DNA of 64,000 bases, from the NCBI RefSeq assembly GCF_014280075.1, contig NZ_CP047950.1, forward strand, positions 124,001 to 188,000, read 5' to 3'. The DNA comes from Synechococcus sp. A15-62. GTDB lineage: Bacteria; Cyanobacteriota; Cyanobacteriia; PCC-6307; Cyanobiaceae. The translations under genes and the position numbers were made by a program. How positions within the stretch are numbered: position 1 is the stretch's first letter; each line of letters starts with the position of its first letter. This document shows, in pieces, positions 1-31,463 of this stretch. Under the pieces are notes generated by a model, which searched no databases, had not been told where the DNA came from, and saw only the letters and a list, made by a program, of their open reading frames with translations.

Positions 1-2879
1 TCTAGTGGAAGCATCGATTCGCTTACGCAGCGGAGGAAATAACGAATTGTCGCTGCAACTGCTGGATGCAGCTGTTGAGTTTGGAGTGAGGAGCGGGTTG
101 GTAGATGACAACCGCGCATGGTCTTTAGTGGGTCTGGGTCGGCGTTCAGAAGCGATTGGACTTTGGAATGAGTTGCTGGTTCACCAAGAGGAAGGTCTGC
201 GGACCCAGGCGCAAGACAATTTGAGGCTGCAAACTGCGGCTTTAGTGGGTCTGGGTCGGCGTTCAGAAGCGATTGGACTTTGGAATGAGTTGCTGGTTCA
301 CCAAGAGGAAGGTCTGCGGACCCAGGCGCAAGACAATTTGAGGCTGCTAGCTGCGGAGCTCAGCAATCAGCTGAAGCAACTGGCTGAAGCGGCTGGGGAG
401 AGCCTGGTCGAATTCGAGGGAAGAGAGTTCAGTGCGCTGTCTGAACTAGAGCAGCCTCTAGTGGAAGCATCGATTCGCTTACGCAGCGGAGGAAATAACG
501 AATTGTCGCTGCAACTGCTGGATGCAGCTGTTGAGTTTGGAGTGAGGAGCGGGTTGGTAGATGACAACCGCGCATGGTCTTTAGTGGGTCTGGGTCGGCG
601 TTCAGAAGCGATTGGACTTTGGAATGAGTTGCTGGTTCACCAAGAGGAAGGTCTGCGGACCCAGGCGCAAGACAATTTGAGGCTGCAAACTGCGGCTTTA
701 GTGGGTCTGGGTCGGCGTTCAGAAGCGATTGGACTTTGGAATGAGTTGCTGGTTCACCAAGAGGAAGGTCTGCGGACCCAGGCGCAAGACAATTTGAGGC
801 TGCTAGCTGCGGAGCTCAGCAATCAGCTGAAGCAACTGGCTGAAGCGGCTGGGGAGAGCCTGGTCGAATTCGAGGGAAGAGAGTTCAGTGCGCTGTCTGA
901 ACTAGAGCAGCCTCTAGTGGAAGCATCGATTCGCTTACGCAGCGGAGGAAATAACGAATTGTCGCTGCAACTGCTGGATGCAGCTGTTGAGTTTGGAGTG
1001 AGGAGCGGGTTGGTAGATGACAACCGCGCATGGTCTTTAGTGGGTCTGGGTCGGCGTTCAGAAGCGATTGGACTTTGGAATGAGTTGCTGGTTCACCAAG
1101 AGGAAGGTCTGCGGACCCAGGCGCAAGACAATTTGAGGCTGCAAACTGCGGCTTTAGTGGGTCTGGGTCGGCGTTCAGAAGCGATTGGACTTTGGAATGA
1201 GTTGCTGGTTCACCAAGAGGAAGGTCTGCGGACCCAGGCGCAAGACAATTTGAGGCTGCTAGCTGCGGAGCTCAGCAATCAGCTGAAGCAACTGGCTGAA
1301 GCGGCTGGGGAGAGCCTGGTCGAATTCGAGGGAAGAGAGTTCAGTGCGCTGTCTGAACTAGAGCAGCCTCTAGTGGAAGCATCGATTCGCTTACGCAGCG
1401 GAGGAAATAACGAATTGTCGCTGCAACTGCTGGATGCAGCTGTTGAGTTTGGAGTGAGGAGCGGGTTGGTAGATGACAACCGCGCATGGTCTTTAGTGGG
1501 TCTGGGTCGGCGTTCAGAAGCGATTGGACTTTGGAATGAGTTGCTGGTTCACCAAGAGGAAGGTCTGCGGACCCAGGCGCAAGACAATTTGAGGCTGCAA
1601 ACTGCGGCTTTAGTGGGTCTGGGTCGGCGTTCAGAAGCGATTGGACTTTGGAATGAGTTGCTGGTTCACCAAGAGGAAGGTCTGCGGACCCAGGCGCAAG
1701 ACAATTTGAGGCTGCTAGCTGCGGAGCTCAGCAATCAGCTGAAGCAACTGGCTGAAGCGGCTGGGGAGAGCCTGGTCGAATTCGAGGGAAGAGAGTTCAG
1801 TGCGCTGTCTGAACTAGAGCAGCCTCTAGTGGAAGCATCGATTCGCTTACGCAGCGGAGGAAATAACGAATTGTCGCTGCAACTGCTGGATGCAGCTGTT
1901 GAGTTTGGAGTGAGGAGCGGGTTGGTAGATGACAACCGCGCATGGTCTTTAGTGGGTCTGGGTCGGCGTTCAGAAGCGATTGGACTTTGGAATGAGTTGC
2001 TGGTTCACCAAGAGGAAGGTCTGCGGACCCAGGCGCAAGACAATTTGAGGCTGCAAACTGCGGCTTTAGTGGGTCTGGGTCGGCGTTCAGAAGCGATTGG
2101 ACTTTGGAATGAGTTGCTGGTTCACCAAGAGGAAGGTCTGCGGACCCAGGCGCAAGACAATTTGAGGCTGCTAGCTGCGGAGCTCAGCAATCAGCTGAAG
2201 CAACTGGCTGAAGCGGCTGGGGAGAGCCTGGTCGAATTCGAGGGAAGAGAGTTCAGTGCGCTGTCTGAACTAGAGCAGCCTCTAGTGGAAGCATCGATTC
2301 GCTTACGCAGCGGAGGAAATAACGAATTGTCGCTGCAACTGCTGGATGCAGCTGTTGAGTTTGGAGTGAGGAGCGGGTTGGTAGATGACAACCGCGCATG
2401 GTCTTTAGTGGGTCTGGGTCGGCGTTCAGAAGCGATTGGACTTTGGAATGAGTTGCTGGTTCACCAAGAGGAAGGTCTGCGGACCCAGGCGCAAGACAAT
2501 TTGAGGCTGCAAACTGCGGCTTTAGTGGGTCTGGGTCGGCGTTCAGAAGCGATTGGACTTTGGAATGAGTTGCTGGTTCACCAAGAGGAAGGTCTGCGGA
2601 CCCAGGCGCAAGACAATTTGAGGCTGCTAGCTGCGGAGCTCAGCAATCAGCTGAAGCAACTGGCTGAAGCGGCTGGGGAGAGCCTGGTCGAATTCGAGGG
2701 AAGAGAGTTCAGTGCGCTGTCTGAACTAGAGCAGCCTCTAGTGGAAGCATCGATTCGCTTACGCAGCGGAGGAAATAACGAATTGTCGCTGCAACTGCTG
2801 GATGCAGCTGTTGAGTTTGGAGTGAGGAGCGGGTTGGTAGATGACAACCGCGCATGGTCTTTAGTGGGTCTGGGTCGGC
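1..2879 (+). repeat. Perfect 456-bp tandem repeat array (six full copies plus a partial one)
   Basis: The unit starts at 1, 457, 913, 1369, 1825, 2281 and 2737, and the array diverges at 2880. I saw no base difference between copies, and the translated units are identical. 456 is divisible by three, so gain or loss of a unit keeps the frame. The array begins before the window, so the true copy number is unknown. Confidence 0.95.
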
Positions 2880-3265
2880 TTCCAGAGGCAGTGGGACTGT
2901 GGAGAGAATTGGAAGCCTCGTCAGATAACGATGCCTTAGTCGAAATGGTCCAAGAAAGGCTTCGGAATTACGCTACTGAGGCTGATCGCATTTCTCAGAC
3001 GAACAAAGCGCAGCTACTTAATGATGAGGGCCTGTACCAACAGGCCAAGATCCTGTTGGTACGGGCCATGTTGGATGATCCCAGCTGGGATGGTTACACC
3101 ACAAAGTTGATAGAAGTGCTGAAAACAGAGCGTGGCTACGAGGACGATGCAGATTTGCTGCAACGGGAGCTTGAGGAGGATCAGTTCAGTTTGGAGGTCT
3201 TTGATTTGTACTTGGATTATGTGGAGCGTCGACTGAAGGAGATTGATGTGAGTAGCTCTTCTTGA
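1..3265 (+). CDS. Giant tandem-repeat helical (TPR-like) protein, 5' end outside window
   Basis: The reading frame is open from the first base, so the gene starts upstream. It consists of six identical 152-residue units plus the first 48 residues or so of a seventh, followed by a unique C-terminal part of about 130 residues. Each unit contains the pattern AWSLVGLGRRSEAIGLWNEL, whose spacing of W, L, G, EA and W resembles a tetratricopeptide helix pair. The tail (from about position 2880) is also helical and charged and contains TPR-like stretches such as LLNDEGLYQQAKILL. No signal peptide or membrane segment is visible in the part seen. I do not recognise a named family. A repeat-solenoid scaffold or adhesin-like role is only inference from the architecture and the glycan-island setting. 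Confidence 0.8.
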   Translation, partial: LVEASIRLRSGGNNELSLQLLDAAVEFGVRSGLVDDNRAWSLVGLGRRSEAIGLWNELLVHQEEGLRTQAQDNLRLQTAALVGLGRRSEAIGLWNELLVHQEEGLRTQAQDNLRLLAAELSNQLKQLAEAAGESLVEFEGREFSALSELEQPLVEASIRLRSGGNNELSLQLLDAAVEFGVRSGLVDDNRAWSLVGLGRRSEAIGLWNELLVHQEEGLRTQAQDNLRLQTAALVGLGRRSEAIGLWNELLVHQEEGLRTQAQDNLRLLAAELSNQLKQLAEAAGESLVEFEGREFSALSELEQPLVEASIRLRSGGNNELSLQLLDAAVEFGVRSGLVDDNRAWSLVGLGRRSEAIGLWNELLVHQEEGLRTQAQDNLRLQTAALVGLGRRSEAIGLWNELLVHQEEGLRTQAQDNLRLLAAELSNQLKQLAEAAGESLVEFEGREFSALSELEQPLVEASIRLRSGGNNELSLQLLDAAVEFGVRSGLVDDNRAWSLVGLGRRSEAIGLWNELLVHQEEGLRTQAQDNLRLQTAALVGLGRRSEAIGLWNELLVHQEEGLRTQAQDNLRLLAAELSNQLKQLAEAAGESLVEFEGREFSALSELEQPLVEASIRLRSGGNNELSLQLLDAAVEFGVRSGLVDDNRAWSLVGLGRRSEAIGLWNELLVHQEEGLRTQAQDNLRLQTAALVGLGRRSEAIGLWNELLVHQEEGLRTQAQDNLRLLAAELSNQLKQLAEAAGESLVEFEGREFSALSELEQPLVEASIRLRSGGNNELSLQLLDAAVEFGVRSGLVDDNRAWSLVGLGRRSEAIGLWNELLVHQEEGLRTQAQDNLRLQTAALVGLGRRSEAIGLWNELLVHQEEGLRTQAQDNLRLLAAELSNQLKQLAEAAGESLVEFEGREFSALSELEQPLVEASIRLRSGGNNELSLQLLDAAVEFGVRSGLVDDNRAWSLVGLGRLPEAVGLWRELEASSDNDALVEMVQERLRNYATEADRISQTNKAQLLNDEGLYQQAKILLVRAMLDDPSWDGYTTKLIEVLKTERGYEDDADLLQRELEEDQFSLEVFDLYLDYVERRLKEIDVSSSS
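125..358 (+). repeat. Nested 117-bp duplication inside each 456-bp unit (first instance)
   Basis: Within each large unit a 39-residue segment starting LVGLGRRSEAIGLWNELL occurs twice in a row, at 125 and 242 in the first copy. The two halves are identical except for a few bases near their ends (QTAA against LAAE). The same nested pair recurs in every full unit. The gene therefore grew by at least two rounds of duplication. Confidence 0.9.
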
Positions 3266-4355: not shown

Positions 4356-4527
4356 CTTATCTAAGATTAAAGTATTAAGATCAGAGTAGAGTAAAAAATA
4401 AAGCCATGAATCATGCATTAGAAATTTATTAAGTATTTAATATTCCAAAGCATGCCTGCAAGTTAAATCGCCAAATATCTAGGAGAAGCTCTGAGCTTTA
4501 AGGCTGGAATCAAAAAGATAAATGCAT

Positions 4528-5766
4528 TTAGAGCTTGATCCTTGCCAATATCTTTGACATTAATTCTTTTGTGTTTTTTTGTTGAGTATTGTGCTTCTGA
4601 AGCAACTCACTTTTTTTGCGTGATTCATGAAAGTAGTGATTCAATTCTTTCTGGACTTGCTGCAATTGAAGTAAGGTTAGCTTGGCTTCCTCAGATGTAG
4701 CCCTCGCTTCCAATTCTTTTTCAGCCAATGATGTCGAAGCTTGCTCTAGCTGTTGCTTGAGTTGCACCATCTGCTGATGTACTTCGTCTCTCTCCTTAGC
4801 TCTGGCATCTCGCTCTTCCATCACCAACTGCAGCTCTCCGCTCTTCTCCTCTAGCTCTTTATTTAATTTCTGGTTTGTCAAAAAGACCTGTTCTAACTCC
4901 TCTTGCGCCTGATGCATTTGAAGCAAGGAGAGCTCGGCATCCTCAGATGCAGCCTTTGTTTCTGATTCTTTTTCAGTCAGTAATGTCGAAGACTGCTCAA
5001 GCTGGTTCCTCAAATCTCCAATGGTCTTCTGCAGTTCTTCTTTCTCCTTTGCTCGGGCATCACGATCGCTTTTGGTACCAGCGAGCTGTTCTTCAAGAGC
5101 TTTCACGCGCTCTGCTCCAGCGTCCTTCTGTTGCTTGAGGTCTTCAACGGTCTTCTGCAGTTCTTCTTTCTCCTTTGCTCGGGCATCACGATCGCTTTTG
5201 GCACCTGCGAGCTGTTCTTCAAGAGCTTTCACGCGCTCTGCTCCAGCGTCCTTCTGTTGCTTGAGGTCTTCAACGGTCTTCTGCAGTTCTTCTTTCTCCT
5301 TTGCTCGGGCATCACGATCGCTTTTGGCACCTGCGAGCTGTTCTTCAAGAGCTTTCACGCGCTCTGCTCCAGCGTCCTTCTGTTGCTTGAGGTCTTCAAC
5401 GGTCTTCTGCAGTTCTTCTTTCTCCTTTGCTCGGGCATCACGATCGCTTTTGGTACCAGCGAGCTGTTCTTCAAGAGCTTTCACGCGCTCTGCTCCAGCG
5501 TCCTTCTGTTGCTTGAGGTCTTCAACGGTCTTCTGCAGTTCTTCTTTCTCCTTTGCTCGGGCATCACGATCGCTTTTGGCACTAGCGAGCTGTTCTTCAA
5601 GAGCTTTCACGCGCTCTGCTACAGCCGCCTTCTCCTTTGCTCGCGCATTATATTCGGCATCAAGCGTTTGTAATCGAATTTCTGTCGTTTTCCGAAGTTC
5701 GTCGAGACACTCCTCGAACTCACTTGGCGAGGTTTGTATTGTGAAATGATCCAACCTTGACTCCAA
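4528..5766 (-). CDS. Coiled-coil protein with 42-residue tandem repeats
   Basis: A 412-residue, highly charged protein that reads as coiled coil almost throughout. About residues 40-250 are five near-identical copies of a 42-residue unit (six heptads) containing ERVKALEEQLAGAKSDRDAR and LQKTVEDLKQQKDAG. The C-terminal 150 residues are also coiled coil but not repeated. No signal peptide, membrane segment or catalytic motif is visible. The ATG at 5766 faces the sulfotransferase start at 5809 with 42 bp between them. A scaffold or spacer is plausible. Long coiled coils are sometimes found next to glycosyltransferases of surface-polysaccharide loci, but no function can be read from the sequence. 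Confidence 0.8.
   Translation of the reverse strand: MESRLDHFTIQTSPSEFEECLDELRKTTEIRLQTLDAEYNARAKEKAAVAERVKALEEQLASAKSDRDARAKEKEELQKTVEDLKQQKDAGAERVKALEEQLAGTKSDRDARAKEKEELQKTVEDLKQQKDAGAERVKALEEQLAGAKSDRDARAKEKEELQKTVEDLKQQKDAGAERVKALEEQLAGAKSDRDARAKEKEELQKTVEDLKQQKDAGAERVKALEEQLAGTKSDRDARAKEKEELQKTIGDLRNQLEQSSTLLTEKESETKAASEDAELSLLQMHQAQEELEQVFLTNQKLNKELEEKSGELQLVMEERDARAKERDEVHQQMVQLKQQLEQASTSLAEKELEARATSEEAKLTLLQLQQVQKELNHYFHESRKKSELLQKHNTQQKNTKELMSKILARIKL
5018..5647 (-). repeat. 126-bp tandem repeats in the coiled-coil gene (about five copies)
   Basis: The phrase tttctcctttgctcgg recurs every 126 bp (for example at 5041 and 5167). Copies are nearly identical. They differ mainly at one alanine/threonine codon (LAGT, LAGA, LASA in the protein), and the first copy on the plus strand is more diverged. 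The repeat is frame-neutral. Confidence 0.9.
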
Positions 5767-5808: not shown

Positions 5809-7278
5809 ATGGAGGCGGGGCAAGATGAACCAATTAATAATGTATCCAATGATTTAGGCGGTAATTGGATTAAGGGCATTAAAATTCATGCGGAAGAACT
5901 TAAGCTTATAAAAAATCGCTTGCGCTATAAAAGCATGAAAGAATTGCAAGACGAAGGAGTTTCAGCTTCTGCCAAGTATTTTATTGAAGATTCGGTATGG
6001 GGATTGAGAATTAACGAATACCTTAAAGTTGAATCCGAAAGCAAAAAGATAGCTTCTAGTCCCAAATTGGCAGCCAAGTTAGCTGCAATCGAGGTAAGTT
6101 CTGAAAAAAAATTATTAATCGCAATTGAGCTAGCAAGTAGCGGATATGAAATTAGTTCGCTTAATTCAATTTTGCAAATTATTGAAGATGAAGAGGTTGA
6201 CGTAGAAGAGCGTGTTGATGCCTTTCTGCTAGTACTGAATAATATTCTTAACAATAGAAATTTAGCCCAAAGATTGTGCAAAAATGACTTGAACTCACAA
6301 GAACTGCTCTATAATATAAGTTTTGTTGAACGACTTGCTAAGTGCTTTAAAGCTGCAGTTAACTCTGCTGAAGATAGCCTAGATACTTTATCAGGAGCCA
6401 TTTCTGAGACGTTAATGTCGGCATCATTGAGGGCATCTCCCAAGCTTCATAGAGATGAATCTGTCGGGTTTTGTATTGCAAAGGAAAGAAACCAAATTTC
6501 TCAAAGGCTGTCTGCTACACATAAAAAACCTGTAATTCGTTCTATCCACCACTTGGCATGCACTGGCGGAACCTTGATTTCAAAGTGCTTAGCGTCAATG
6601 TGCAATGTTGCGCTTGTTGGCGAGATCAATCCGTTCAATGAAACAGGCACAAAATATGAACTTACTAACCCTCTCCTGCTGTTGCGGAACAACTATCGAA
6701 AGCTTACTGAAGAAGAGATAATGGAAGCGTTTAAAGAACAAATAGCTAATGTGTACCGAATTTGCAAAAATGACGACGTCGATCTTATCCTACGCGATCA
6801 TAGCCATACTGACTTCTTTATAGGAGATAAAATATCCAAGATTTGCCCTATCAAAGACGGGCTCGGTGATGATTATGAATTAATTTCAGTTGTAACTATA
6901 CGCCACCCGCTCGATAGTTATTTGAGCATGCTTTTCAATGGTTGGGAAAAGCAATTTTATCCAAATGATATTAATGAATATAGCAAGAGGTATATGTGTT
7001 TTCTCGATAAATATAGCGATCTTCCGCTTATTCGCTATGAAGACTTCTGTGCTAATCCTGTTAGTACAATGCAGTCGATATGTGAAATTCTTGAGCTTCA
7101 GTTTAACGAAGATTTTTTGCAAGAATTTGGAGATCACAAGTTGTCTGGTGATAGTGGCCGATCGGGAACAAAAAGCATTGAGCAACGCTCAAGAAGAAAA
7201 ATGCCACAAGGTCTTGAAGAGTCTTTGCAAAAATCTGAATATTATTTCAAACTTATTGAAAAACTTGGCTATTCATGA
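5809..7278 (+). CDS. Sulfotransferase-family protein with unknown N-terminal half
   Basis: 489 residues. The C-terminal half has the PAPS-binding hallmarks: a 5'-phosphosulfate loop IHHLACTGGTLISKCL near residue 247, and a 3'-phosphate motif TIRHPLDSYLSMLFNGW near residue 365, followed by LIRYEDFCANP. Sulfotransferases move sulfate from PAPS to hydroxyls or amines, here probably on a glycan. The first 230 residues are helical and unrecognised. They may be a docking domain. The gene is divergent from the coiled-coil gene and AT-rich like its neighbours. The loop has CTGG where many family members have a basic residue before S/T, so activity is likely but not certain. Confidence 0.75.
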   Translation: MEAGQDEPINNVSNDLGGNWIKGIKIHAEELKLIKNRLRYKSMKELQDEGVSASAKYFIEDSVWGLRINEYLKVESESKKIASSPKLAAKLAAIEVSSEKKLLIAIELASSGYEISSLNSILQIIEDEEVDVEERVDAFLLVLNNILNNRNLAQRLCKNDLNSQELLYNISFVERLAKCFKAAVNSAEDSLDTLSGAISETLMSASLRASPKLHRDESVGFCIAKERNQISQRLSATHKKPVIRSIHHLACTGGTLISKCLASMCNVALVGEINPFNETGTKYELTNPLLLLRNNYRKLTEEEIMEAFKEQIANVYRICKNDDVDLILRDHSHTDFFIGDKISKICPIKDGLGDDYELISVVTIRHPLDSYLSMLFNGWEKQFYPNDINEYSKRYMCFLDKYSDLPLIRYEDFCANPVSTMQSICEILELQFNEDFLQEFGDHKLSGDSGRSGTKSIEQRSRRKMPQGLEESLQKSEYYFKLIEKLGYS

Positions 7279-7642: not shown

Positions 7643-9988
7643 TTACCAATTATCCCAAAGTGATTTTAACCTTTCGCGATAGCGAGTTCCAGCTTCTATA
7701 AAACTAAATCGCTTTTGATAGTCAGCTAATACCATCGCATCACGGCTTGGATAATAAGCATTTGGATTACTGGCTATCTCGAGTCGTCGTTCCGCTATCT
7801 CTTGCATCAGCTGAGCTGCGTGATTTAGATCTGGTTCACCCCAGCAATGGCCATCGGCGTAGGGATAGGCAGCTCGAGGAATGGGTACTTCTAAGCAACG
7901 TACGGGGTGTGCGAGAGGTCCCACACAGAAATCTGCGTTGCCGCCGTAATCTGTGGCGATCACGTCAAGACCAAGTTGGAATGCTTCTGCCAAGCCTCTT
8001 CCAAAGCCTTCGGAACGATGTAGAGAAACAAATACGTCACTACAGCCATAAATTGCAAGCATCTCATCTCTCTCTAAATTGGCTTCCAGCAGATGAACGC
8101 GCGGATCCTCTTGCGCTCTGATTTGTAACCAGTTCCATTCCGGAATGAAGTTACGCGGAGGGAACGTTTTAATCAGCAACTCCACTCGTTCCGACAGGGG
8201 GTGAGTGTTGTCAGAGCGTCCTTGGATTGCTAGTAACTGAGGCAAGGGAAAGGCTTGTTGAAAAGTTTCCAACACCGCCACAGGGTTTTTACGGATGGCA
8301 GTGGAGTTGAGATCGAAGCTGTAAACAAACACAATTGCATCATTCGATAGACCGAGATGATTACGTGTAAATAGCCGGCTTGAATGAGAGTAAAATCGAT
8401 TCGGTTCTGGGATTTCCGCAGCCATGTGCATCAACTGCAATGGAACATCTGCCTGAGCTGCGGGTTCCTGGAGGGCTCGGGCAGTAAATGTGCTCGATGG
8501 CCATACTTCATCCGTAACTTCCAACAGGGGCTTCCAAGCCTCTGGCCATTGACTTGTTTCCCAGGGCCAGGCGGTAATGGTGTAGCGCTGATTAAGACCA
8601 CTTAACCCTTGTTTGAGCAACCATCGCGCATAGATGGGAGCCTGCATACATACCAAGTTGAAGGCGTAGGGGCCACCATCTTGATCGCTAGAGACCAGCT
8701 TATCTATGCTGCGATCAGTACATGCGGCGTCATTGCCTGCTGGGTGATGAATTACGCAACAGGGCACATCAGCAGCTTGCAGGGCGCGGGCTGCCATGCG
8801 GATGTCTTCTCCGATGCCAAATATTTCATAGGCGTGCCCTATCAGGTTTACCCCGAAGGGTCGCTTTGATCTAGAGTTTTGAGACTGTGCTAACAACTGT
8901 CTCGTGGTTATCGATGCTTTGTCTGTGTCTAGCAAACGGTAATTTTGCTTGTGGATGGCGATGAACTGCTCACAGCGCATTTTGCGTTCAACGGGTGAGC
9001 CTGGTGCATTCGGGTGCAACTGAGGATGAAGAGCTTCGAGTAACTGAATTGCTAATGATTGTCTCGCTTCTGTTTTGCTCTGAGATGGTGGGCTGGATTC
9101 TGTGGCACTGCTTAGCTGATCATCATTGAGATGCCAGTCATGGCGGAAGTCTTCCAGCGCTTTTGGATTAAGCCATGGTGCTGCTTGATCTGCGAGCTCA
9201 CGTAACAGTTCAGTGTTGGTTTGGCCTGCTTTGGTTTCCGCAAGGCCGAGCTGTAGATCTAATCCAAGGTTGTGTAGGCGCGTAGTTGGCGCGGATCCAA
9301 AGTGTTTTGCGACTAGCTTTATGAATTCCAGATCAGCTTGTGTGCGCTGCTTGTTTGTAATGGTGTTTTCATGTAATCGTGTTCTACCCTGAAGGTGAGG
9401 TAGATAACCAATACGGTATGGGAAAGTCTCGAATGCTCGGAGCCAGTAATCGAAATCAAAAGCTGTTTTCAAGTGCGCATCAAATGGCCCGAGCATGAGC
9501 CCCATGGTGCGGCGAAACACCACAGAAGGTTGACAAATGAAGCAGTGTGATCGAAAGCCTTCAACGCCTGTAGTGGGCGGCAGGGTGGGATAGCGCTGAC
9601 GTAAGCCTGTAGAATTGTTGAATTCTTCTCCTTCTCCGTAAAGCATCAGCCATTGGGGATTTGCTTCAAGTGCGTATGTCGCACGGGCTAGTGCACCTGG
9701 TGGATATAAGTCATCGGCATTGAGCCAGCCGATAAGGGTTCCGCGAGCGGCCTTGAAGGCTTTGTTGAGGGCATCGGCAGGACCGCTATCAGTGGTACTG
9801 ACGATTCGAAGCCGAGGATCAACGACCGAGAGCCTTTCTAGAAATTGCAGACTGCCATCAGTAGAGCCGCCATCTGCTACGAGGAGTTCTAAACATTCAG
9901 CCTGATTCAGAACTGAACGGACTGCCGGTTCAAGAAAGCGACCTGCATTCAGACACGGCATCAAGACTGAAACTGAACTAATTAGCAA
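7643..9988 (-). CDS. Two-domain glycosyltransferase, GT2 fused to GT4
   Basis: 781 residues. The N-terminal 240 form a GT-A family 2 domain: SVLMPCLNAGRFLEPAV, then LLVADGGSTDGSL and the metal-binding region IGWLNADDLYPPGA. The C-terminal 400 are a GT-B domain with GVNLIGHAYEIFGIGEDIRM at its start and the family 4 nucleotide-sugar motif HRSEGFGRGLAEAFQLGLD near the end. One polypeptide could therefore add two successive sugars. The start is uncertain. The frame is closed by TAA upstream and has only a TTG at 9988. An ATG ten codons further in (at MPCLNAG) would cut into the first strand, so TTG is preferred despite a weak ribosome-binding site. Confidence 0.85.
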   Translation of the reverse strand: MLISSVSVLMPCLNAGRFLEPAVRSVLNQAECLELLVADGGSTDGSLQFLERLSVVDPRLRIVSTTDSGPADALNKAFKAARGTLIGWLNADDLYPPGALARATYALEANPQWLMLYGEGEEFNNSTGLRQRYPTLPPTTGVEGFRSHCFICQPSVVFRRTMGLMLGPFDAHLKTAFDFDYWLRAFETFPYRIGYLPHLQGRTRLHENTITNKQRTQADLEFIKLVAKHFGSAPTTRLHNLGLDLQLGLAETKAGQTNTELLRELADQAAPWLNPKALEDFRHDWHLNDDQLSSATESSPPSQSKTEARQSLAIQLLEALHPQLHPNAPGSPVERKMRCEQFIAIHKQNYRLLDTDKASITTRQLLAQSQNSRSKRPFGVNLIGHAYEIFGIGEDIRMAARALQAADVPCCVIHHPAGNDAACTDRSIDKLVSSDQDGGPYAFNLVCMQAPIYARWLLKQGLSGLNQRYTITAWPWETSQWPEAWKPLLEVTDEVWPSSTFTARALQEPAAQADVPLQLMHMAAEIPEPNRFYSHSSRLFTRNHLGLSNDAIVFVYSFDLNSTAIRKNPVAVLETFQQAFPLPQLLAIQGRSDNTHPLSERVELLIKTFPPRNFIPEWNWLQIRAQEDPRVHLLEANLERDEMLAIYGCSDVFVSLHRSEGFGRGLAEAFQLGLDVIATDYGGNADFCVGPLAHPVRCLEVPIPRAAYPYADGHCWGEPDLNHAAQLMQEIAERRLEIASNPNAYYPSRDAMVLADYQKRFSFIEAGTRYRERLKSLWDNW

Positions 9989-10111
9989 AAGGAGAACACT
10001 AGTGAATCCATTATTATCTTAACCTACACCGGCAGCAAATTTTTCACATATTAAAAGCATGGCTTTCAAAAATAGAGGACTATCAAGAATTAATGCCATG
10101 AGTTAGAATGA

Positions 10112-10312
10112 CTATCCTTCAAAAAAATCTAACGTGTTCATAATGCTCAAATTTCTGTCCAGTTGAGTTGAATTAAGCATATATGCCTGCTGTACATCTG
10201 TTTTGCCAAAATTAAAAACATTATTTGCTATCGTATGCTTTACTAGATCTAGAAGGCTTGGAAGTACAAAATTGTGTATAAGTTTATTTTTAAGGTATTG
10301 ATGGAACAGGTG
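10112..10312 (-). pseudogene. Coding-like remnant downstream of sulfotransferase
   Basis: A 66-codon open stretch on the minus strand ends in TAG at 10112. It contains the well-composed text LLDLVKHTIANNVFNFG and QQAYMLNSTQLDRNLSIMN, but has no ATG, GTG or TTG near its 5' end, where a TGA closes it at 10313. It follows the sulfotransferase stop by about 35 bp on the same strand. It is probably the surviving 3' end of a lost gene. The family is not recognised. The rest of the 9989-10346 interval shows nothing. Confidence 0.35.
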
Positions 10313-10346
10313 TCAACAAATTGGTGGCATGTCGGGACAAAATAAG

Positions 10347-11123
10347 TTACAATAAGTAACCTAAAGGACGTACAATTTCTCTGAATTGATCTGAAAGTTG
10401 ATTTATCAAATCTTGGTCCATATGATTTAAATAGTCGCCAGGATACATGTGACGAACATGTTGCCCTGTGAGGTTTGATCCCGGCTTGATGTACTTGTCG
10501 CTGCACTTGCAGGAACGAATCACTTCGTTGGAATTCACAGGTAAACCCATATGATTCATCATACAGGAAAAGAGGTGGGGCTTATTAAATAGGAATGATT
10601 CATAGTTATAAACCTGACAGGAGGCACCTTCGTATGAGAGTAAGTCATTGATTTCTATATATTGTGAAAGTACATTTACAGAATCTTCCAAAAAGATTTG
10701 TTCTTTTTCGACAAAATGAGCCTTTTCCCCTATATTAATCATCTCTTGATGAAAGTCTTGATTGCCAGGATTCGTGTGTCCCCCATCAGAAACTTTGTAG
10801 AATTGATAGTAGCGGCTAACCAAAATGTCTAATGGATGTCGAATTAAAAACACAACTTTAGTGTCAGAAAAGCACAATTCTTGCTTAGCGTAATCAGGGA
10901 GGCCTCGAAAACCTATAAATAGTTTCAGGCCTTCAGATAGCATTTTGAGATACAATCCGGGAGCAGATGAAGGCCCGATTTCAGATACAAAAGCTGCATC
11001 TTCAGGGTTACCATACTGTAAATCAACTGAAGAGAAGTATTCAGAAAGAATAGTATTAAGCATGCTGCTTCCAGCACGTTGCATCGAGATGAAGAAGCGG
11101 TAATTGTTAATTGAATCTTGCAT
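10347..11123 (-). CDS. Sulfotransferase-family protein
   Basis: About 258 residues from the ATG at 11123, a typical size for a single-domain sulfotransferase. The PAPS 5'-phosphosulfate loop is FFISMQRAGSSMLNTIL near residue 10. The 3'-phosphate motif is FLIRHPLDILVSRYYQFY near residue 90, and VYNYESFLF follows. The frame is open further upstream to 11168, but the ATG at 11123 lies just past the stop of the preceding glycosyltransferase (11126), which suits co-transcription. The likely role is O-sulfation of a sugar in the glycan made by the cluster. The acceptor is unknown. Confidence 0.8.
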   Translation of the reverse strand: MQDSINNYRFFISMQRAGSSMLNTILSEYFSSVDLQYGNPEDAAFVSEIGPSSAPGLYLKMLSEGLKLFIGFRGLPDYAKQELCFSDTKVVFLIRHPLDILVSRYYQFYKVSDGGHTNPGNQDFHQEMINIGEKAHFVEKEQIFLEDSVNVLSQYIEINDLLSYEGASCQVYNYESFLFNKPHLFSCMMNHMGLPVNSNEVIRSCKCSDKYIKPGSNLTGQHVRHMYPGDYLNHMDQDLINQLSDQFREIVRPLGYLL

Positions 11124-11125
11124 TA

Positions 11126-12289
11126 TTATAGTTGAACCTCTGATTGAGCCATTCGGAGGCGTAAACAATGACTTTGATCATCAGCTTCAATTGGATAATT
11201 GCCTACAATTTCAAGAAGATGAATGATTTTATCGGCCATCGCTTTCCAACTAAAATGTTTTATGTGCTCCAAACCAGCTTGTCTTTTCTTGTCTGAAAAA
11301 ACAGGATCGTTGACTAATTGATCCATTACAGACAATAATTGATCGGTTGAAGATCCATCGATGTAGCAGGCTGCTTCACCACCAGCCTCGGCTAGTGAAC
11401 CACATTGTGTGGTGATCACAGGGCAACCAGATGCCATAGCTTCGATGACGGGCATACCAAAGCCTTCATAAAGTGAGGGATAAATCAGACCTAAAGCACC
11501 TTGATAAGCCAAAGATAATGAGGTATCATCAAAATAAAATCGTCTAATCGGATATTTTAGATTTGCCTGAGCTTGTAGAACCCAATCTTCAAGTTTCTCA
11601 TCACCACCTGCACATATTACACCATACGGCTTAATGGAAGAATCATCAGAAATAGCATTAAAAAATAAACGTGTATTCTTGTATGATTTGTATTGATCAC
11701 GGGACCCTACAAATATCCAATACGGATAGTCTAAACCATGTATATTTTTAAAATCACGAAGTTCTTTTTCACTTCGAACACGAAATTTTTCTTCACTTAC
11801 TCCGCAGTAACTCACATCGATAGAGTTGGAGGAGATCTCGGGATGAAATTCTTTTAGGTCATTAGCTGTACTTTTTGAGATGCAGGTATATGCACAGGCA
11901 TGCTTGATTGCTGCAATCTTTTCAAGCCAGCCAGGATCATCCATAGGGAAGTCAAACTTCTCAGGAATCATGTCGTAGACCATCATTAAAGACTTTGTTT
12001 TAATTGGGAATGTATAATAACTTGATATGAAAACATCAATTTTTAGATCATCGCAGATGTGTTGAATAGCAATTGAATCAGTGCCAGAAAAACGAAAGTC
12101 TTTGCTTTTGCAAAATGGAATGTAGAAATAATTGGAAATATGCGGTACTTTATCTGACCTGTCTAAGATATAAATCTCATGTCTCCTGTTGATGTCAGAT
12201 TTGTTCCACTCTTGAAGAATCGATGCCCAGACCCGAGCAATACCTGTATTAGCAATTTCGAAAAAAATAGGGTCAAAAAGTATTTTCAC
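11126..12289 (-). CDS. GT4-family glycosyltransferase
   Basis: 387 residues with GT-B architecture. The N-terminus KILFDPIFFEIANTGIARVW is the acceptor-domain start typical of mannosyl- or rhamnosyl-transferase-like GT4 proteins. The donor domain shows WIFVGSRDQYKSYKNTRLFF and the signature YEGFGMPVIEAMASGCPVIT near residue 280. GDP-mannose, GDP-fucose or a related GDP-sugar would be a natural donor given manC, gmd and fcl upstream on the same strand, but donor use cannot be read from the motifs. It overlaps the start of the 637-residue gene's 3' end by 4 bp (12286-12289), which suggests translational coupling. Confidence 0.85.
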   Translation of the reverse strand: MKILFDPIFFEIANTGIARVWASILQEWNKSDINRRHEIYILDRSDKVPHISNYFYIPFCKSKDFRFSGTDSIAIQHICDDLKIDVFISSYYTFPIKTKSLMMVYDMIPEKFDFPMDDPGWLEKIAAIKHACAYTCISKSTANDLKEFHPEISSNSIDVSYCGVSEEKFRVRSEKELRDFKNIHGLDYPYWIFVGSRDQYKSYKNTRLFFNAISDDSSIKPYGVICAGGDEKLEDWVLQAQANLKYPIRRFYFDDTSLSLAYQGALGLIYPSLYEGFGMPVIEAMASGCPVITTQCGSLAEAGGEAACYIDGSSTDQLLSVMDQLVNDPVFSDKKRQAGLEHIKHFSWKAMADKIIHLLEIVGNYPIEADDQSHCLRLRMAQSEVQL

Positions 12290-14199
12290 GTTACAGGAAC
12301 GAATGATTTAGAAGAGTTTAGGCTGCGATATCGAGATTGTAACTCAATGTACGATAATAACAACTGAGAACGTCTTGGCAACGATCGAGAAGCGATGTGC
12401 AATTGATTGAATTTAGCATCTGGTATGATAAGAGTTGAGTCGTCCGTCATAATTAAATCCTTGAAGTGTTTATTTGTTATTGAAGCAACTTCTTCTATAC
12501 CTTTTGTCTCTGATGATGTAGAAATACCTTCAGGATTCTGATAATAGCCAGACAAAGGAATGGGTATAAAGTAAAAGTTTTTATGAGCTTTAATGCATCT
12601 TAGCCAAAATTCCCAATCAGCAGCTGATGCATATTTTGCATCAAATAATCCGACTTCTTGATGCAAGCTTTTTCTCCATAATGGAGCGCAATGTGGGTAA
12701 TTGCAGGAAATCAAAATGCCGGGAGATAAATGCGTTAAAGAGCTCTTTATTCCAATTGACTCTATTAGATTCCAAGATGGATTTGCTTCAAAATAATAGT
12801 AAAAATCGCCATAGCAAATGTCAAATGAAGGAAAACGCTCGAGGCATTCAACCTGCATACTTAAACCATAAGGAGCTCGTAAATCATCCAGGTTAGCATT
12901 TGTCAAATACTTGCCTTTCGACATTGAAACTCCTAAATTCCATGCATCGTATATAGAAATTCTATCTTCACACCTATGGTAGATAATATTTGGATGCTTG
13001 CACATGTATTCCTTGATAATTGTATTTTCGTCGCCTGGCGAGCATGCATCAATAATTATCAGCTCGAAATTGTCAAAATTTATCTGGTTAACCATATTTT
13101 CCATAAAGTTTCTTATGAATTTGTCTCCATTATATAGGCTTGTGATAATTGATAGAGAAGGGTTGTCAGGCGTTTTTGTATTATGTTCTTTATAGAAAAT
13201 ACTATTCTTTGCGATCCTAGCAAAGTCATTACTGCTTCGTTTGTTTAAATTCGATTTAATTTCGTCCCAATCCTTAACTGTAATATGTTGATTAGTGCCC
13301 ATAATCAAAGCACCACTATGCTCAGGCTTGTGTTTATTAGTTCCAGGATTTAAAATTTTATTTCTTCCAAAAGTTTCTAATACTAAATTATTTTGCAGAA
13401 ATAATGGGTCTATTGATGCTTGAATAGCTGCAAAAGCTTGCTTTCTTGTATAATCGTCAATTAAATGATGATAAGCCCATCCCCAGACCTCATATGTTGT
13501 TGGGAAACGCCCCAATATTCCGTTAAAGAGATATATGATGTACTCAGCATCGCTAAGATGAGGCAATATCGACCTTTCGTTATCTTTTCTTGATTTATAT
13601 TCTTCAGAATCAAATAGTGCTTCTGCGTATATAGATACATCACCTTGTGAACATTCTAGTAAATCATCTAAACTTTTGATTTCTTCATTGGACACTGAAC
13701 GAGCTAGAATTGTTTCAGCGATACGAACATGAACTGCTGTATTTACAATAATGTTTGAAGATGATTCCAAATCATCGTTGGGCAATGATCTGCTTTTGTT
13801 ATTAGCCTCCTCTAAAAAGAATATTTTACATTCAGAGCTTTGTGATTGTTCCTCCAAGAATTGCTGAATTTGTATTGCCGTGTCCGGCGACTCTATGGAT
13901 GAACATAAGCTGGAAATGAACCAATCTAAGGATAAAATGCTACTTGATATTAGGTTTAATTCACTCTTAAGTTGAAGAATAGTTTGCTTTAGCTCTTTTG
14001 ATGCAAATTTGCATATAAATAATTGATTGAGCAAGATGCCGGCCGCATCCTTTCTTAGATATAAGCCTGATTGTTCATTTTCTTTTGCATTTTCACCTTG
14101 CATTGTTTTTTTGAGAAAAAGCAATGGAGTACCATAATAGCATTTGCGATGACGCGTGTAAATTTTTTGTTTCGCTGGCACTCTGAATGTCAAGTGCAA
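12286..14199 (-). CDS. GT2 glycosyltransferase with DUF4214-like N-terminal region
   Basis: 637 residues if the TTG at 14199 is used. An ATG at 14103 (MQGENAKENEQSG) is an equally possible start. The middle segment IIYLFNGILGRFPTTYEVWG resembles the DUF4214 helical repeat found in cyanobacterial glycan-related proteins. From about residue 345 a GT-A family 2 domain begins: LSIITSLYNGDKFIRNFMEN, FELIIIDACSPGDENT, then ISIYDAWNLGVSMSKGKYLT with NLDD as the metal-binding site. The gene lies 21 bp after the GMD-like gene's stop and is probably in its operon. Strongly AT-rich. Confidence 0.8.
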   Translation of the reverse strand: MHLTFRVPAKQKIYTRHRKCYYGTPLLFLKKTMQGENAKENEQSGLYLRKDAAGILLNQLFICKFASKELKQTILQLKSELNLISSSILSLDWFISSLCSSIESPDTAIQIQQFLEEQSQSSECKIFFLEEANNKSRSLPNDDLESSSNIIVNTAVHVRIAETILARSVSNEEIKSLDDLLECSQGDVSIYAEALFDSEEYKSRKDNERSILPHLSDAEYIIYLFNGILGRFPTTYEVWGWAYHHLIDDYTRKQAFAAIQASIDPLFLQNNLVLETFGRNKILNPGTNKHKPEHSGALIMGTNQHITVKDWDEIKSNLNKRSSNDFARIAKNSIFYKEHNTKTPDNPSLSIITSLYNGDKFIRNFMENMVNQINFDNFELIIIDACSPGDENTIIKEYMCKHPNIIYHRCEDRISIYDAWNLGVSMSKGKYLTNANLDDLRAPYGLSMQVECLERFPSFDICYGDFYYYFEANPSWNLIESIGIKSSLTHLSPGILISCNYPHCAPLWRKSLHQEVGLFDAKYASAADWEFWLRCIKAHKNFYFIPIPLSGYYQNPEGISTSSETKGIEEVASITNKHFKDLIMTDDSTLIIPDAKFNQLHIASRSLPRRSQLLLSYIELQSRYRSLNSSKSFVPVT

Positions 14200-14220
14200 A
14201 TCTATTAATAAATTTTTTGT

Positions 14221-15171
14221 TCAGAATAAATTTCCGAGATACATTTTTTTTACAATTTCTTCAATTGTTTTTGATGATGACCATCCAAGGTCTGTTTTTA
14301 TTAGTTGAGGACTTAGAGCAGAGTAAGCAAGGTCTGATGGCCTTTTTAAGGAATCATCAACTTGCAAATATTTTGCTTCATTTAAGCCTGCAATATCAAA
14401 TGCATGAGATACAAATTCGCGAAGAGAGCTGGTATGGCCTGAAGCAATTAAATAATCTTTTGCAATAGGAGCTTGAAGCATTAGATGCATTGCTTTGACG
14501 TAATCAGGCGCCCACCCCCAATCTCTGAAAATATTTAGATTTCCTAATTTTAGTGACTTCAAACGATTTTGCTTAATTGCAATGACACCGTCTATAATTT
14601 TTCTGGTAACGAATTTTTTTGGTCTTAGTGGTGATTCGTGATTAGCTAAAATTCCAGTGCAAGCATACATATCATATGCTGTCCGATAAGTAGCAACTTG
14701 CCAGAAAGAAGCTGATTTTGCTACCCCATATGGACTCCTTGGCTTAAACTTAGTTTCTTCCGTAGCTGCTAACATTCCACAATCTCCGAAACACTCTGAA
14801 CTTCCTGCACTAAAGTATTTGATATTATTACCTAAATATCGTATTACTTCTAAAAAATTTAGCGTTGAAGATACAATTGACTCCATGCACTCTACTGGCT
14901 GATCAAATGAAAGTCCAACGCTAGTTTGACCAGATAGATTGTATATCTCATCAGGCATTACTGTTGAAACGACTTTCAAGACGCTTCTGAAATCGTTTGG
15001 CGCTAATGACGTTAGCTCAATATTATTGTCTATGTCGAGTAGAGACAGTCTTGAGACGTCGCAACTTTGGCAATCTCGACTAGTTCCTATCACTTTGTAG
15101 CCAATATCCAAGAGGTAGCGTGCTAAATATGCGCCATCTTGGCCGGTAACACCAACAATCAGAGCCTTCAT
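14221..15171 (-). CDS. GMD-like NAD(P)-dependent sugar-nucleotide epimerase/dehydratase
   Basis: 316 residues of the extended short-chain dehydrogenase family. The Rossmann loop is GVTGQDGAYLARYLLDIGY. The catalytic Ser/Thr region is FSAGSSECFGD and the YxxxK pair is in [28 protein letters not shown] matches the substrate loop of GDP-mannose 4,6-dehydratase. It is shorter and much diverged from the true GMD two genes upstream. It may act on the 4-keto intermediate (a reductase of RMD type) or be a second dehydratase giving another deoxy sugar. Follows fcl by 127 bp on the same strand. Confidence 0.75.
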   Translation of the reverse strand: MKALIVGVTGQDGAYLARYLLDIGYKVIGTSRDCQSCDVSRLSLLDIDNNIELTSLAPNDFRSVLKVVSTVMPDEIYNLSGQTSVGLSFDQPVECMESIVSSTLNFLEVIRYLGNNIKYFSAGSSECFGDCGMLAATEETKFKPRSPYGVAKSASFWQVATYRTAYDMYACTGILANHESPLRPKKFVTRKIIDGVIAIKQNRLKSLKLGNLNIFRDWGWAPDYVKAMHLMLQAPIAKDYLIASGHTSSLREFVSHAFDIAGLNEAKYLQVDDSLKRPSDLAYSALSPQLIKTDLGWSSSKTIEEIVKKMYLGNLF

Positions 15172-15298
15172 GAATTGTCTTCTTTAAAATCCAGGAGCAA
15201 AGACCATAAGTAATAACTTGTATTTGTCAGTAAGTGCATAAATATAAAGTACATTCAAGCAGCCTCGAGGATTCTTTGATAAATGTATTCAGTTGTTA

Positions 15299-16303
15299 TC
15301 ATAATCGAATGCCTGAATTTGGATCCTTTAGCTGGCTCTTGAAACAATCTATTGATTCAGTTAATCCCTTGTCGAGTGATATTTTGGATTTCCAGCCAAG
15401 TTTTGTTAGTCTGCCAACATCTAATTGTTTTTTTGGGGTTCCGTCTGGTTTATCTTTGTCCCAATGGATAACGCCCATGAAACCTGTTTTTTCTGCTATT
15501 AATTCAGAAAGTTGTTTAATTGATAAATCGCTGCCGGTACCAACGTTTAAATATGGCAGCAATCTTCCTGTTTCGTCTGTTGGCGCATTGCTGCTGTTAA
15601 GGCTCCAATTCTCAAGTGAAAATACACATGCATCGCCAAGATCATCAACATGAAGAAATTCACGCATTGGCGTTCCTGTCCCCCAGCAAGTAACACTCTC
15701 TGCACCTAACTCTTTTGCTTCATGGAATCGGCGAATTAATGCAGGTAGGACGTGGCTGTTCTCGGGGTGATAATTATCTCCAGGCCCATAGAGATTCGTA
15801 GGCATTAAGCTAATCGCATCAAAGTCATATTGTTTTCTTAGTGATTCACATAATTTGATTCCAGCTATTTTTGCAATCGCATACCATTCATTGGTTGGCT
15901 CTAGAGATCCTGTTAATAGCGATTCCTCTTTAATCGGCTGCTCTGCGAATTTGGGATAAATGCAGCTGCTACCCAAAAATAGTAAGCGCCTGACTCCACT
16001 CTGCCACGCAGTTTCGATCACATTATTTTGAATTTTTAGGTTCTCCAGCAAAAAATCTGCTGGATATAGGTTATTGGCATGAATGCCGCCTACCTTGGCA
16101 GCGGCTAGCACCACAACAGTTGGTTTGTTTTTAGCAAACCATTTCTGCACAGCTTGGAGATTTAAGAGATTCAGTTCATTGCGGTTTGCAGTCAATAAAT
16201 TCTTGTAACCAGAGCGTTGCAGAGCTCGACAGATTGCGCTGCCGGCCATGCCGCCATGGCCAGCAACGAAAAAGAGATCGTTTTTATTGATTAATGTCCC
16301 CAT
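15299..16303 (-). CDS. fcl: GDP-L-fucose synthase
   Basis: About 334 residues. The bifunctional 3,5-epimerase/4-reductase converts GDP-4-keto-6-deoxymannose to GDP-L-fucose. Visible are the NADPH loop FVAGHGGMAGSAICRAL at the N-terminus, the LFLGSSCIYPKFAEQP segment, and the catalytic YAIAKIAGIKLCE. MPTNLYGPGDNYHPENSHVL is the usual substrate-site text. The ATG at 16303 overlaps the gmd stop (TGATG), so the two are translationally coupled; an upstream in-frame TTG is disfavoured. Full family length. A truncated copy of its first codons remains beside the second gmd. Confidence 0.93.
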   Translation of the reverse strand: MGTLINKNDLFFVAGHGGMAGSAICRALQRSGYKNLLTANRNELNLLNLQAVQKWFAKNKPTVVVLAAAKVGGIHANNLYPADFLLENLKIQNNVIETAWQSGVRRLLFLGSSCIYPKFAEQPIKEESLLTGSLEPTNEWYAIAKIAGIKLCESLRKQYDFDAISLMPTNLYGPGDNYHPENSHVLPALIRRFHEAKELGAESVTCWGTGTPMREFLHVDDLGDACVFSLENWSLNSSNAPTDETGRLLPYLNVGTGSDLSIKQLSELIAEKTGFMGVIHWDKDKPDGTPKKQLDVGRLTKLGWKSKISLDKGLTESIDCFKSQLKDPNSGIRL

Positions 16304-17439
16304 CAACCTTTGCTCCTGTTGGCCTGAATCGCTGCAGAGGTGGTCGGTGGGTTCTCCATCGATCCCACTACGTTGAATCCTTTGAGACGTAGTAACGCTT
16401 CTTTCCTGGCTTCTTCTTTGTCTGCCTCAACCATCTCGGCAACAAGTTCTTCCAGGGTGGTGGTAGGTGTCCAATCCAGTTTCTCATGAGCTTTGCTGGG
16501 ATCGCCAAGCAGGGTCTCCACCTCTGCAGGTCGGAAGTAGCGAGGATCAATGCGCACAACCACTTCACCGGTGCTGCGGCGCCCCACCTCATCTACTCCT
16601 TCGCCCTCCCATATTAGCGATCCCCATCCCAGTGATTCTGCAGTGAGTTCGATGAATCGCCGGACGCTCTCCTGTCGGCCTGTTGCTATCACAAAATCTT
16701 CAGGTGGACCCTCCTGCTGAAGCATCCGCCACTGCATTTCCACGTAATCCCTTGCGTGACCCCAGTCTCTCAAAGAGTCGAGATTACCCATGTATAAGCA
16801 ATCATCAAGTCCTTCATTAATGCGAGCCATGCCTCTTGTGATTTTCCGTGTCACAAAAGTTTCACCACGTCTAGGACTTTCGTGATTAAATAATATGCCG
16901 TTACAGGCATACATGCCATAGGCCTCGCGGTAGTTCACCGTGATCCAGTAGCCGTAAAGCTTCGCTACGCCATAGGGGCTTCTCGGGTAAAAAGGTGTGG
17001 TTTCTTTTTGAGGTACTTCCTGCACAAGTCCGTAAAGTTCACTTGTGCTGGCTTGGTAAATTCGACAAGTCTCAGTTAAGTTCAGAATTCGTACAGCTTC
17101 AAGGATTCTGAGTGTTCCCAGCGCATCACTATTGGCTGTATATTCGGGCGCTTCAAAGCTGACTGCTACGTGGCTTTGGGCACCCAAATTATAAATTTCA
17201 TCGGGCTTAACTTGTTGGATAATTCTGATCAAATTGGTGCTATCGGTTAAGTCTCCATAATGCAGAATCAAGCGTGGGTCAGCTTCGTGCGGATCCTGAT
17301 ATAGGTGATCAATGCGACTTGTATTGAAGCTGCTGGCGCGACGTTTAATGCCATGCACTTCGTATCCCTTGTCAAGAAGTAATTCTGCTAAGTAACTTCC
17401 ATCTTGGCCGGTGATGCCAGTAATAAGTGCTTTCTTCAT
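16303..17439 (-). CDS. gmd: GDP-mannose 4,6-dehydratase, copy 1
   Basis: 378 residues. It makes GDP-4-keto-6-deoxy-D-mannose, the precursor of GDP-fucose, GDP-rhamnose and perosamine. The NADP loop is [20 protein letters not shown]. The catalytic region is [19 protein letters not shown] with [10 protein letters not shown] as the YxxxK site. [15 protein letters not shown] completes the family signature. It follows manC by one base of spacing and is coupled to fcl. Its protein is identical to copy 2 at 30326-31462, and I saw no nucleotide difference between the two genes. Confidence 0.95.
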
Positions 17440-17440
17440 T

Positions 17441-18907
17441 TCAAGCTTTTGCTTTAGTCATTATTGCATCACTGCGTCCATAACGGTCCTGAAACCGCAC
17501 AATGTCGTCTTCACCGAGGTATTCGCCGCTCTGTACTTCAATGAGCTCTACAGGAATTTTTCCTGGATTTGACAGGCGGTGTTTGCAGCCAAGAGGGATA
17601 TAGGTGCTCTGGTTCTCGCCCAGCAGTTGCTCTTCTCCGTCGCGCTCAACAATGGCTGTTCCCCGCACCACGATCCAGTGTTCGGCCCGGTGGTGGTGCA
17701 TCTGCAACGATAGGCTTGCGCCGGGTTTCACCGAGATCCGCTTCACCTGCCAGCGGCTGCCCTCCACCACACCCGTGTAGGAGCCCCAGGGGCGATAGAT
17801 CTTGCGGTGCGCCTTGCCTTCCGGGCTGCCGGCGGCCTCCAGTTGCTTCACCACGGTCTTGATCTCCTGGGCCTTGTAGCGATCCGCAATCAACACGGCG
17901 TCGTCGGTTTCCACCACCACCAGGTTTTCAACCCCCAGCCCCACCACCAGACGGTGTTCGCTGCGTAGATAGCAGTCGCGGCTTTCTTCGGCAATCACGT
18001 GGCCCTGCAGCACATTTCCTTGGGAATCCTTTTGTTCTGAGGTGTCCCAGAGGGCACTCCAGCTGCCCACATCACTCCAGCCCGCATCCAGCGGCAGCAC
18101 ACTGCCCAGTTCCGTTTTTTCCATCACGGCCACGTCAATGGCCACGTTGGGGCACTTGGCGAAGGCCTCCCGCTCCAGCCGATGGAATTCCAGGTCGGCT
18201 GTGTCCTGCTCCAGCGCTGCCCGGCAGCAACTCACCACCTCTGGTGCCAGCCGCTCCAGTTCCGCCAGCATCGCGCTGGCGCGGAACAGGAACATGCCGC
18301 TGTTCCAGGTGAAGCGGCCGGTGGCCAAAAACTGCTCTGCTGTGGCCTGGTCGGGCTTCTCGACGAAGCGCTTGATCGTCACATGGGCGGGTTCTCCGAG
18401 GGAGAACGTTTCGCTGGCCTCGATGTAGCCGTAGCCAGTTTCCGGGGCCGTCGGCACGATGCCGAAGGTCACCAGGCGGCCTTCTTCTGCCGGCTTGCGG
18501 CCGGCGTTGATGGCCTGGCGGAACTGTGCTCCATCACGGATCAGATGATCCGCCGCCAGCACCAGCAGCAGGGGGTCCTCGCCGTTGGCCGTGGCCTGCA
18601 GTGCGGCCACCGTCACCGCCGGGGCGGTGTTGCGGCCCATCGGCTCCAGCAGGATCGCGTTCGGTTCAACCCCGATCTGGCGCATCTGCTCGGCCACGAT
18701 GAAGCGGTGGTCTTCATTGCAGATCAGCAAGGGAGCCGCTAAGGCCTCGAGCCCTGTCAGCCGTTGCTGGGTCTGCTGCAGCAGCGTCGCTTCGCCGTCA
18801 CCGCTTAGGGGCCAGTACTGCTTGGGGTAACTCGCCCGCGACAGCGGCCACAGGCGTGTGCCGGTTCCTCCGCAAAGGATCACAGGAATCAGCGGTGTCG
18901 CGGCCAT
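17441..18907 (-). CDS. manC: Mannose-1-phosphate guanylyltransferase / mannose-6-phosphate isomerase, copy 1
   Basis: 488 residues from ATG 18907 ([14 protein letters not shown]). The guanylyltransferase domain has the pyrophosphorylase signature [20 protein letters not shown] and the FVEKPD sugar-binding motif. The C-terminal type II isomerase cupin has [17 protein letters not shown]. It converts mannose-6-phosphate towards GDP-mannose for gmd directly downstream. The frame stays open 27 codons further upstream, but homology with copy 2 supports this start. The protein differs from copy 2 at about 15 positions, all in the parts away from gmd; the region next to gmd is identical. Confidence 0.95.
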
Positions 18908-31462: not shown

Positions 31463-31463
31463 T

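Follow-up and report, generated by a model that had tools for sequence, protein, structure and literature searches.

The perfect repeats at the start of the window (the whole stretch of DNA that was analysed, 64,000 nucleotides of Synechococcus sp. A15-62, C1:124001-188000) are probably the middle of a cytoplasmic alpha-solenoid of the TPR/PPR class. This protein would serve as a scaffold or docking protein of a surface-glycan locus, and it would be paired with the product of a convergent coiled-coil gene that itself expands in whole heptads. We put the probability of this reading at about 55%. The assembly consists of one contig of 2,294,140 bp (genome G000 below), and because the genome encodes photosystem II proteins, the organism is an oxygenic phototroph; genome size and gene content suggest a marine picocyanobacterium. 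Near-identical coding arrays mark a gene that is being rewritten now, and here neighbouring genes that differ in structural type are both repeat-expanded, side by side in three genomes, in loci for the surface coat. Were copy number to tune this coat, it would provide a simple genetic dial for escape from phages and grazers, one that can be read by long reads and tested in culturable strains. The gene pair may act as a scaffold for surface-sugar synthesis that can itself evolve, and it gives a handle on a gene family with no assigned function in a highly variable part of these genomes. The features of the locus are collected in Table 1.

Table 1. Features of the repeat gene, its convergent partner and the adjoining locus (positions are those of the window)
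Feature	Position	Strand	Basis
3' part of the TPR-like repeat gene	1..3265	+	Open frame; the N-terminus of a relative (L073:4815-6461) matches and supports the ATG
Six identical 456-bp units and 143 bp of a seventh	1..2879	+	219 bp more of the array lies before the window
Internal 117-bp duplication (39 codons), one example; present in every 456-bp unit	123..356	+	TRF; 4 differences between copies
Single-copy C-terminal part, conserved in orthologs	2880..3262	+	Alignment
Convergent coiled-coil partner gene, 412 aa	4528..5766	-	ORF; heptad periodicity; adjacency in relatives
126-bp (42-residue, 6-heptad) tandem array in the partner, 4.9 copies, 97% match	5015..5633	-	Tandem-repeat analysis
Conserved C-terminal helix motif of the partner, consensus LTLLQLxQVQEELEHYFL...	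4531..4710	-	Alignments and genome searches
Sulfotransferase-domain gene adjoining the pair	5809..7278	+	Pfam PF13469, 29.2 bits, cut-off 27
Glycan genes: glycosyltransferases, second sulfotransferase, GDP-mannose dehydratase and epimerase genes, manC	7643..18988	-	Pfam
Decayed remnant, a second copy of the start of the repeat gene, behind manC copy 1	19233..19388	+	blastn matches to the G029 gene start (72% over 83 bp, E 4e-7) and to the array (70% over 122 bp)

A homogenised array in a helical-repeat gene

The first 2736 nucleotides of the window are six complete 456-bp units that are base for base one sequence. A seventh copy, of 143 bp, is identical through position 2879, and the first mismatch falls at 2880. 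An earlier note on this DNA, made from its letters alone, had described six identical copies, a partial seventh ending at 2879 and a frame-neutral unit; all three statements hold and the end coordinate is exact, each unit being 152 codons inside one open frame of 1235 codons counted from its ATG (C1:123558-127265). The gene starts 443 bp before the window and 291 bp downstream of L010:11377-13266, which we take to be glmS; the C-terminal counterpart of the latter in G029, another genome of the genus, has a SIS domain. The array itself begins at C1:123782, and identity at period 456 spans C1:123782-126879, or about 6.8 copies as assembled. Twenty 20-kb stretches sampled from the genome, 400 kb in all, contained no tandem array whose period exceeds 48 bp at a TRF score of 50 or more, which excludes chance and makes repeat expansion look like a property of the locus rather than of the genome.

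Two parts, module A (117 bp) and block B (222 bp), make up the unit, and the gene runs from its N-terminus through A-B, six A-A-B units and a diverged A to a single-copy C-terminus. The two copies of A within a unit differ at 4 of their 117 positions. The ortholog in G029 (441 aa) is built on a plain A-B unit of 339 bp, present in 2.7 copies with a 100% match. Its presence suggests that 339 bp is probably the older unit size, and that the 456-bp unit arose through a doubling of A.

Comparison of these two orthologs bears directly on the age of the arrays. Neither the six copies in G000 nor the 2.7 copies in G029 differ among themselves, whereas 63 of 339 bases differ between the two genomes, arguing that the arrays were homogenised separately in each lineage, long after the lineages parted. 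By the rule of three, divergence among the G000 units is below 0.0044 per synonymous site (six units with about 115 synonymous sites each). Between the genomes the unit has a dS of 0.76 and a dN of 0.092 (dN/dS about 0.12), and its protein sequence is, by this measure, held by purifying selection. Over the 131 codons of the single-copy C-terminus dS is similar, 0.66, but dN is higher, 0.257. These results support the earlier proposal that the array is either young or continually homogenised. The proposal that the protein varies in length finds support between genomes of different species, in which it measures 1235, 441 and 501 aa.

Taken by itself, the array belongs to a known kind. Published examples already include cyanobacterial TPR arrays that were amplified recently, and in each ortholog separately (eLife 2016, PMC5074805). 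As described for those arrays, the repeats here are more alike within a protein than between orthologs, and their extents differ (6.8 x 456 bp vs 2.7 x 339 bp). Unlike the amplification reported there, which proceeds from a single helical hairpin, the unit here is a block of 113 or 152 residues, and the array lies in glycan loci and is paired with an expanding coiled-coil gene. Near-identical cyanobacterial coding repeats that lack silent changes are likewise reported for recently amplified beta-propellers such as the WRAP domain of Npun_R6612 (PMC9218822); these propellers have another fold, and the setting described for them is one of STAND proteins and immunity rather than of glycans. Three aspects look new, namely the coupling to a second gene that expands, growth in heptad steps and the location in a glycan locus; neither these nor the gene pair itself turned up among the titles and abstract openings listed in searches of the open-access literature.

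Sequence profiles place the protein in the TPR/PPR class of helical repeats. The Pfam family TPR_2 (PF07719) reaches 56.1 bits against a curated cut-off of 27, a score that is summed over the repeats and inflated by them, with no single stretch passing E 0.01 alone. The G029 ortholog scores 27.6 bits, and TPR_2 matches at E<=0.01 occur in 7 of 12 family members. A profile of the 12 members matches designed PPR chains in the PDB at E 2.9e-15, with weak matches to a TPR protein (0.014) and to the TPR of OGT (E 0.022); a PDB search with the array protein as a single sequence returned one match, at E 0.89. AlphaFold2, run without an alignment, gave mostly helix at low confidence (mean pLDDT 46.6 and 52.0 in two predictions). 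The earlier note had not recognised the family; the TPR_2 result speaks against a family beyond recognition, though the 113-residue unit looks lineage-specific. The remaining Pfam matches were discarded as repeat-inflated chance; the only one to pass its cut-off is that of the window's protein to the unrelated CaiF_GrlA, which does so just barely (25.4 vs 25 bits). The NCBIfam matches of the array protein, all far below their cut-offs, were discarded on the same ground.

Hydropathy analysis detected no hydrophobic segment in the window's protein or in its 11 relatives (the 19-residue maximum is 1.08 here and at most 1.49 across the 12), and by the same measure none of the 12 members has an evident signal peptide. 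A cytoplasmic scaffold fits this result better than a surface protein does. The scaffold, one of two roles that the earlier note had put forward, is made plausible by the TPR/PPR class of the sequence.

The convergent coiled-coil partner

The gene that converges on the repeat gene has a tandem array of its own, which the earlier note had missed. In G000 the repeat gene carries 6.8 copies of 456 bp and the coil gene 4.9 copies of 126 bp (97%). The corresponding values in G029 are 2.7 copies of 339 bp and 4.1 copies of 147 bp (95%), and at 95% the coil array there would be older than its neighbour's. In G198 the repeat gene contains a 705-bp duplication (93% in the best 300 bp) and the coil gene 13.5 copies of 231 bp (99%); this last array, at L076:6014-9133, comprises 13 full units of two kinds, one base apart. 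The three coil units measure 42, 49 and 77 residues, exactly 6, 7 and 11 heptads, and the hydrophobic period peaks at 3.5 in all three.

Such expansion is recurrent but not universal in either gene. The partner in G015 has a weaker 105-bp repeat (5 heptads, 80%, with an overlapping 51-bp reading at 59%), and no tandem repeat was detected in the other 8 of 12 partners. Near-identical repeats are absent from 9 of the 12 repeat genes, in which the best internal 240-bp identity is 0.39-0.76, so amplification is not needed for function. To judge from the sequences, the relatives lengthened the same gene pair independently.

The pairing itself is conserved. In 11 of 12 family loci, including that of the window, the next downstream gene is convergent and has a coil-type tail, as read from the ORF list with spurious overlapping ORFs set aside by eye; the exception is G005, where an RgpF gene stands between the repeat gene and the coil gene. 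A profile of the tail (60 positions, 7 rows) matches the partner in 11 of the 12 genomes and misses the partner in G026; four of the 11 genomes had not been used in the profile, and three of the 11 matches are weak (G014, G005 and G211). The same profile gives weak matches elsewhere in G000, G029, G026 and G211, and it matches one of eight genomes that lack the repeat gene. Of 400 genomes, 46 have the tail, 23 have the repeat gene and 12 have both (vs 2.6 expected). The coil model was built from seven partner genes, so these counts lean towards the genomes of those genes; with the seven excluded, co-occurrence is modest (5 observed vs 1.6 expected, P 0.014). A further instance of the pairing was found in G281, where a second, stand-alone family gene (E 1e-56; L124:724-3139) that had been missed by the genome-wide family search ends 25 bp from a convergent coil gene.

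The coil also seems to be a module with exchangeable partners, found in more than one setting. No TPR-family match was obtained in 34 of the 46 genomes with the coil motif. When the loci of five coil-motif genomes were viewed, a different gene faced the coil in three, and in a fourth of the five, G021, no family gene was found within about 7 kb. At L125, L126 and L128 the coil tail is faced by another gene family, with the start MLAFxKRR in two of its members and GLISGWV common to all three. An N-terminal stretch with a motif like W-S/F-SPF is common to several partner coils (L039:5563-6123, L074:7509-8486, L076:5914-9663 and L078:2273-2926).

A precedent for a coiled-coil rod in a glycan locus is WbdD of E. 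coli O9a, for which a changed coil length is reported to change the chain length (PMC5082667). The partner resembles this ruler in being a coiled-coil rod encoded in a glycan locus. Unlike WbdD, in which the coil is described together with a chain-terminating kinase/methyltransferase and a membrane-binding end, the partner shows no kinase, methyltransferase or membrane part by Pfam or hydropathy. Pfam analysis of the partner returned only three matches, all below cut-off and to families of the coiled-coil type, and no hydrophobic segment was found in it (hydropathy maximum 0.03). A search of the open-access literature for the letters of the coil motif gave no match.

The glycan locus and the distribution of the family

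Pfam analysis of the neighbouring genes upholds the earlier placement of the array in a glycan island. The place equivalent to that of the adjoining sulfotransferase-domain gene is occupied in G029 by a sulfotransferase-domain gene as well (L037:7070-8215, PF00685). The neighbourhood was also surveyed at 11 family loci, a set that excludes G000, G010 and G281 and in which ORFs were picked mechanically by length. Among the 58 neighbour ORFs, 8 matched the group-1 glycosyltransferase family Glyco_trans_1_4, 6 matched rhamnan-synthesis RgpF and 4 matched GT2. The control consisted of 106 of 137 ORFs, at 12 of 16 loci (L093-L096 were dropped), from eight family-holding genomes; the group-1 glycosyltransferase and RgpF were each found in at most 1 of these 106 ORFs and GT2 in 2.

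The link to glycans is well supported, and it extends to the proteins themselves. In G010 and in G281 one protein combines the repeat domain with glycosyltransferase domains of the WsaF-like and GT2 types; in G211 the fusion is to RgpF, PhyH and GT2. Giant glycosyltransferase fusions with the repeat domain were seen at L041:1-3729, L079:2351-6532 and L078:2939-7267. In FlmG the TPR domain, not the glycosyltransferase domain, is reported to bind the acceptor, docking flagellin for its glycosyltransferase. The members of the present family that are like FlmG and OGT are the repeat-glycosyltransferase fusions of G010, G281 and G211. The window's gene is unlike both: Pfam detected no glycosyltransferase domain in it, so that TPR and glycosyltransferase are not joined in a single protein here, and it has a perfect expanded array.

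A search with an alignment of six members, run over 400 genomes of the taxonomic family, detected the repeat family in 23, spread over 8 of 59 genera. As a count of family genes, 23 is a lower bound, since at least one member gene, in G281, escaped detection. The family is patchy, and the 377 of 400 genomes with no detected member count against the favoured explanation.

Origin and possible action of the gene pair

Under the scaffold reading, unequal recombination or replication slippage between neighbouring copies would expand the repeats and sweep them to identity, lineage by lineage, while selection would keep the protein sequence of the unit. The same process would add whole heptads to the convergent coiled-coil rod. 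Binding between the two proteins is probable, and the groove of the solenoid may take up the rod's conserved C-terminal helix, although this is a guess. The pair could hold glycosyltransferases and sulfotransferases, or their acceptor, in the cytoplasm, by analogy with the docking performed by the TPR domain of FlmG. Copy number would then set valency or reach, and the rod could set a distance, by analogy with the WbdD coil and O-antigen length. An extension of this model, which we regard as unlikely, makes the pair one device, in which solenoid and rod lengthen by recombination in period-preserving steps and together govern how long or dense the surface glycan is or how its sulfates are spaced. 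Such a device would be an inheritable and rapidly tunable ruler by which picocyanobacteria could change their coats against phages and grazers.

Another possibility, doubtful in our judgement, is that the array reflects neutral dynamics, with a unit that is prone to slippage or unequal crossing-over, a copy number that drifts, extra copies that are inert and a protein that tolerates any length. The 9 of 12 family genes that lack near-identical repeats are in keeping with this idea, as are the recently amplified TPR arrays and beta-propellers reported in many proteins (PMC5074805, PMC9218822). It is harder to reconcile with the purifying selection on the unit (dN/dS about 0.12), and with a repeat that stays in frame through 1235 codons. 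Nor would neutral drift lead one to expect that both adjacent genes bear repeats in three genomes, with the coil in whole heptads, or that the 400-kb genome sample would hold no array of period above 48 bp. It is very unlikely that the true genome has fewer units and that the rest were created by assembly or cloning. Assembling identical 456-bp repeats is indeed hard, but assemblers usually collapse identical units rather than invent them. Moreover, the unit junctions require at least two units, and G029 and G198 have arrays of their own with different unit sizes.

The earlier note had suggested, beside a scaffold, a length-variable surface protein, and an adhesin or other surface protein of the kind that often bears repeats in bacteria would suit both the glycan island and the identity of silent sites among the repeats. 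Its probability is nonetheless very small: no member of the 12 has a hydrophobic segment, the protein is acidic, and relatives have the repeat domain joined to glycosyltransferase domains. This reading was rejected on the strength of hydropathy, which revealed neither an export signal nor an anchor, and of the domain fusions. The least probable reading assigns the protein to a conflict or defence system, as a recognition module whose repeats turn over fast in the manner of the near-identical propellers published for cyanobacterial STAND proteins (PMC9218822). Besides this precedent, there is a match to a NACHT helical domain (PF22733) that stays below cut-off (23.5 of 27 bits), and PADLOC matched the two coil proteins examined to its DndD, PbeC, JetC and LmuB models. 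The PADLOC matches of the coils, including that of the G198 coil to DndD (4e-24), are read as coiled-coil similarity, however, and the repeat protein of the window has no PADLOC match at E<=0.01, with weak matches for its G029 ortholog; on these grounds the defence reading was rejected. Neither gene has an NTPase or effector domain, and most of the neighbours scanned with Pfam are of the glycan type. A phage origin was also rejected, a scan of viral contigs having given no relative.

The remainder of the window contains a hint that the locus recombines. Two gmd-manC copies lie 14 kb apart (window 16257-18964 and 30280-32987) and are 95.7% identical. The two gmd copies are identical over all 1137 bp while the manC copies differ with a dS of 0.28, which points to gene conversion of gmd. 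The decayed remnant behind the first manC copy suggests a trace of a lost second copy of the gene pair. The region around it (19065-19388) has weak similarity (E 0.01) to the region upstream of the G029 gene. Finally, two low-GC stretches that lack large ORFs (window 3301-4500 and 19001-21500; 40% GC vs 59% in the genome sample) are perhaps gene graveyards of the island.
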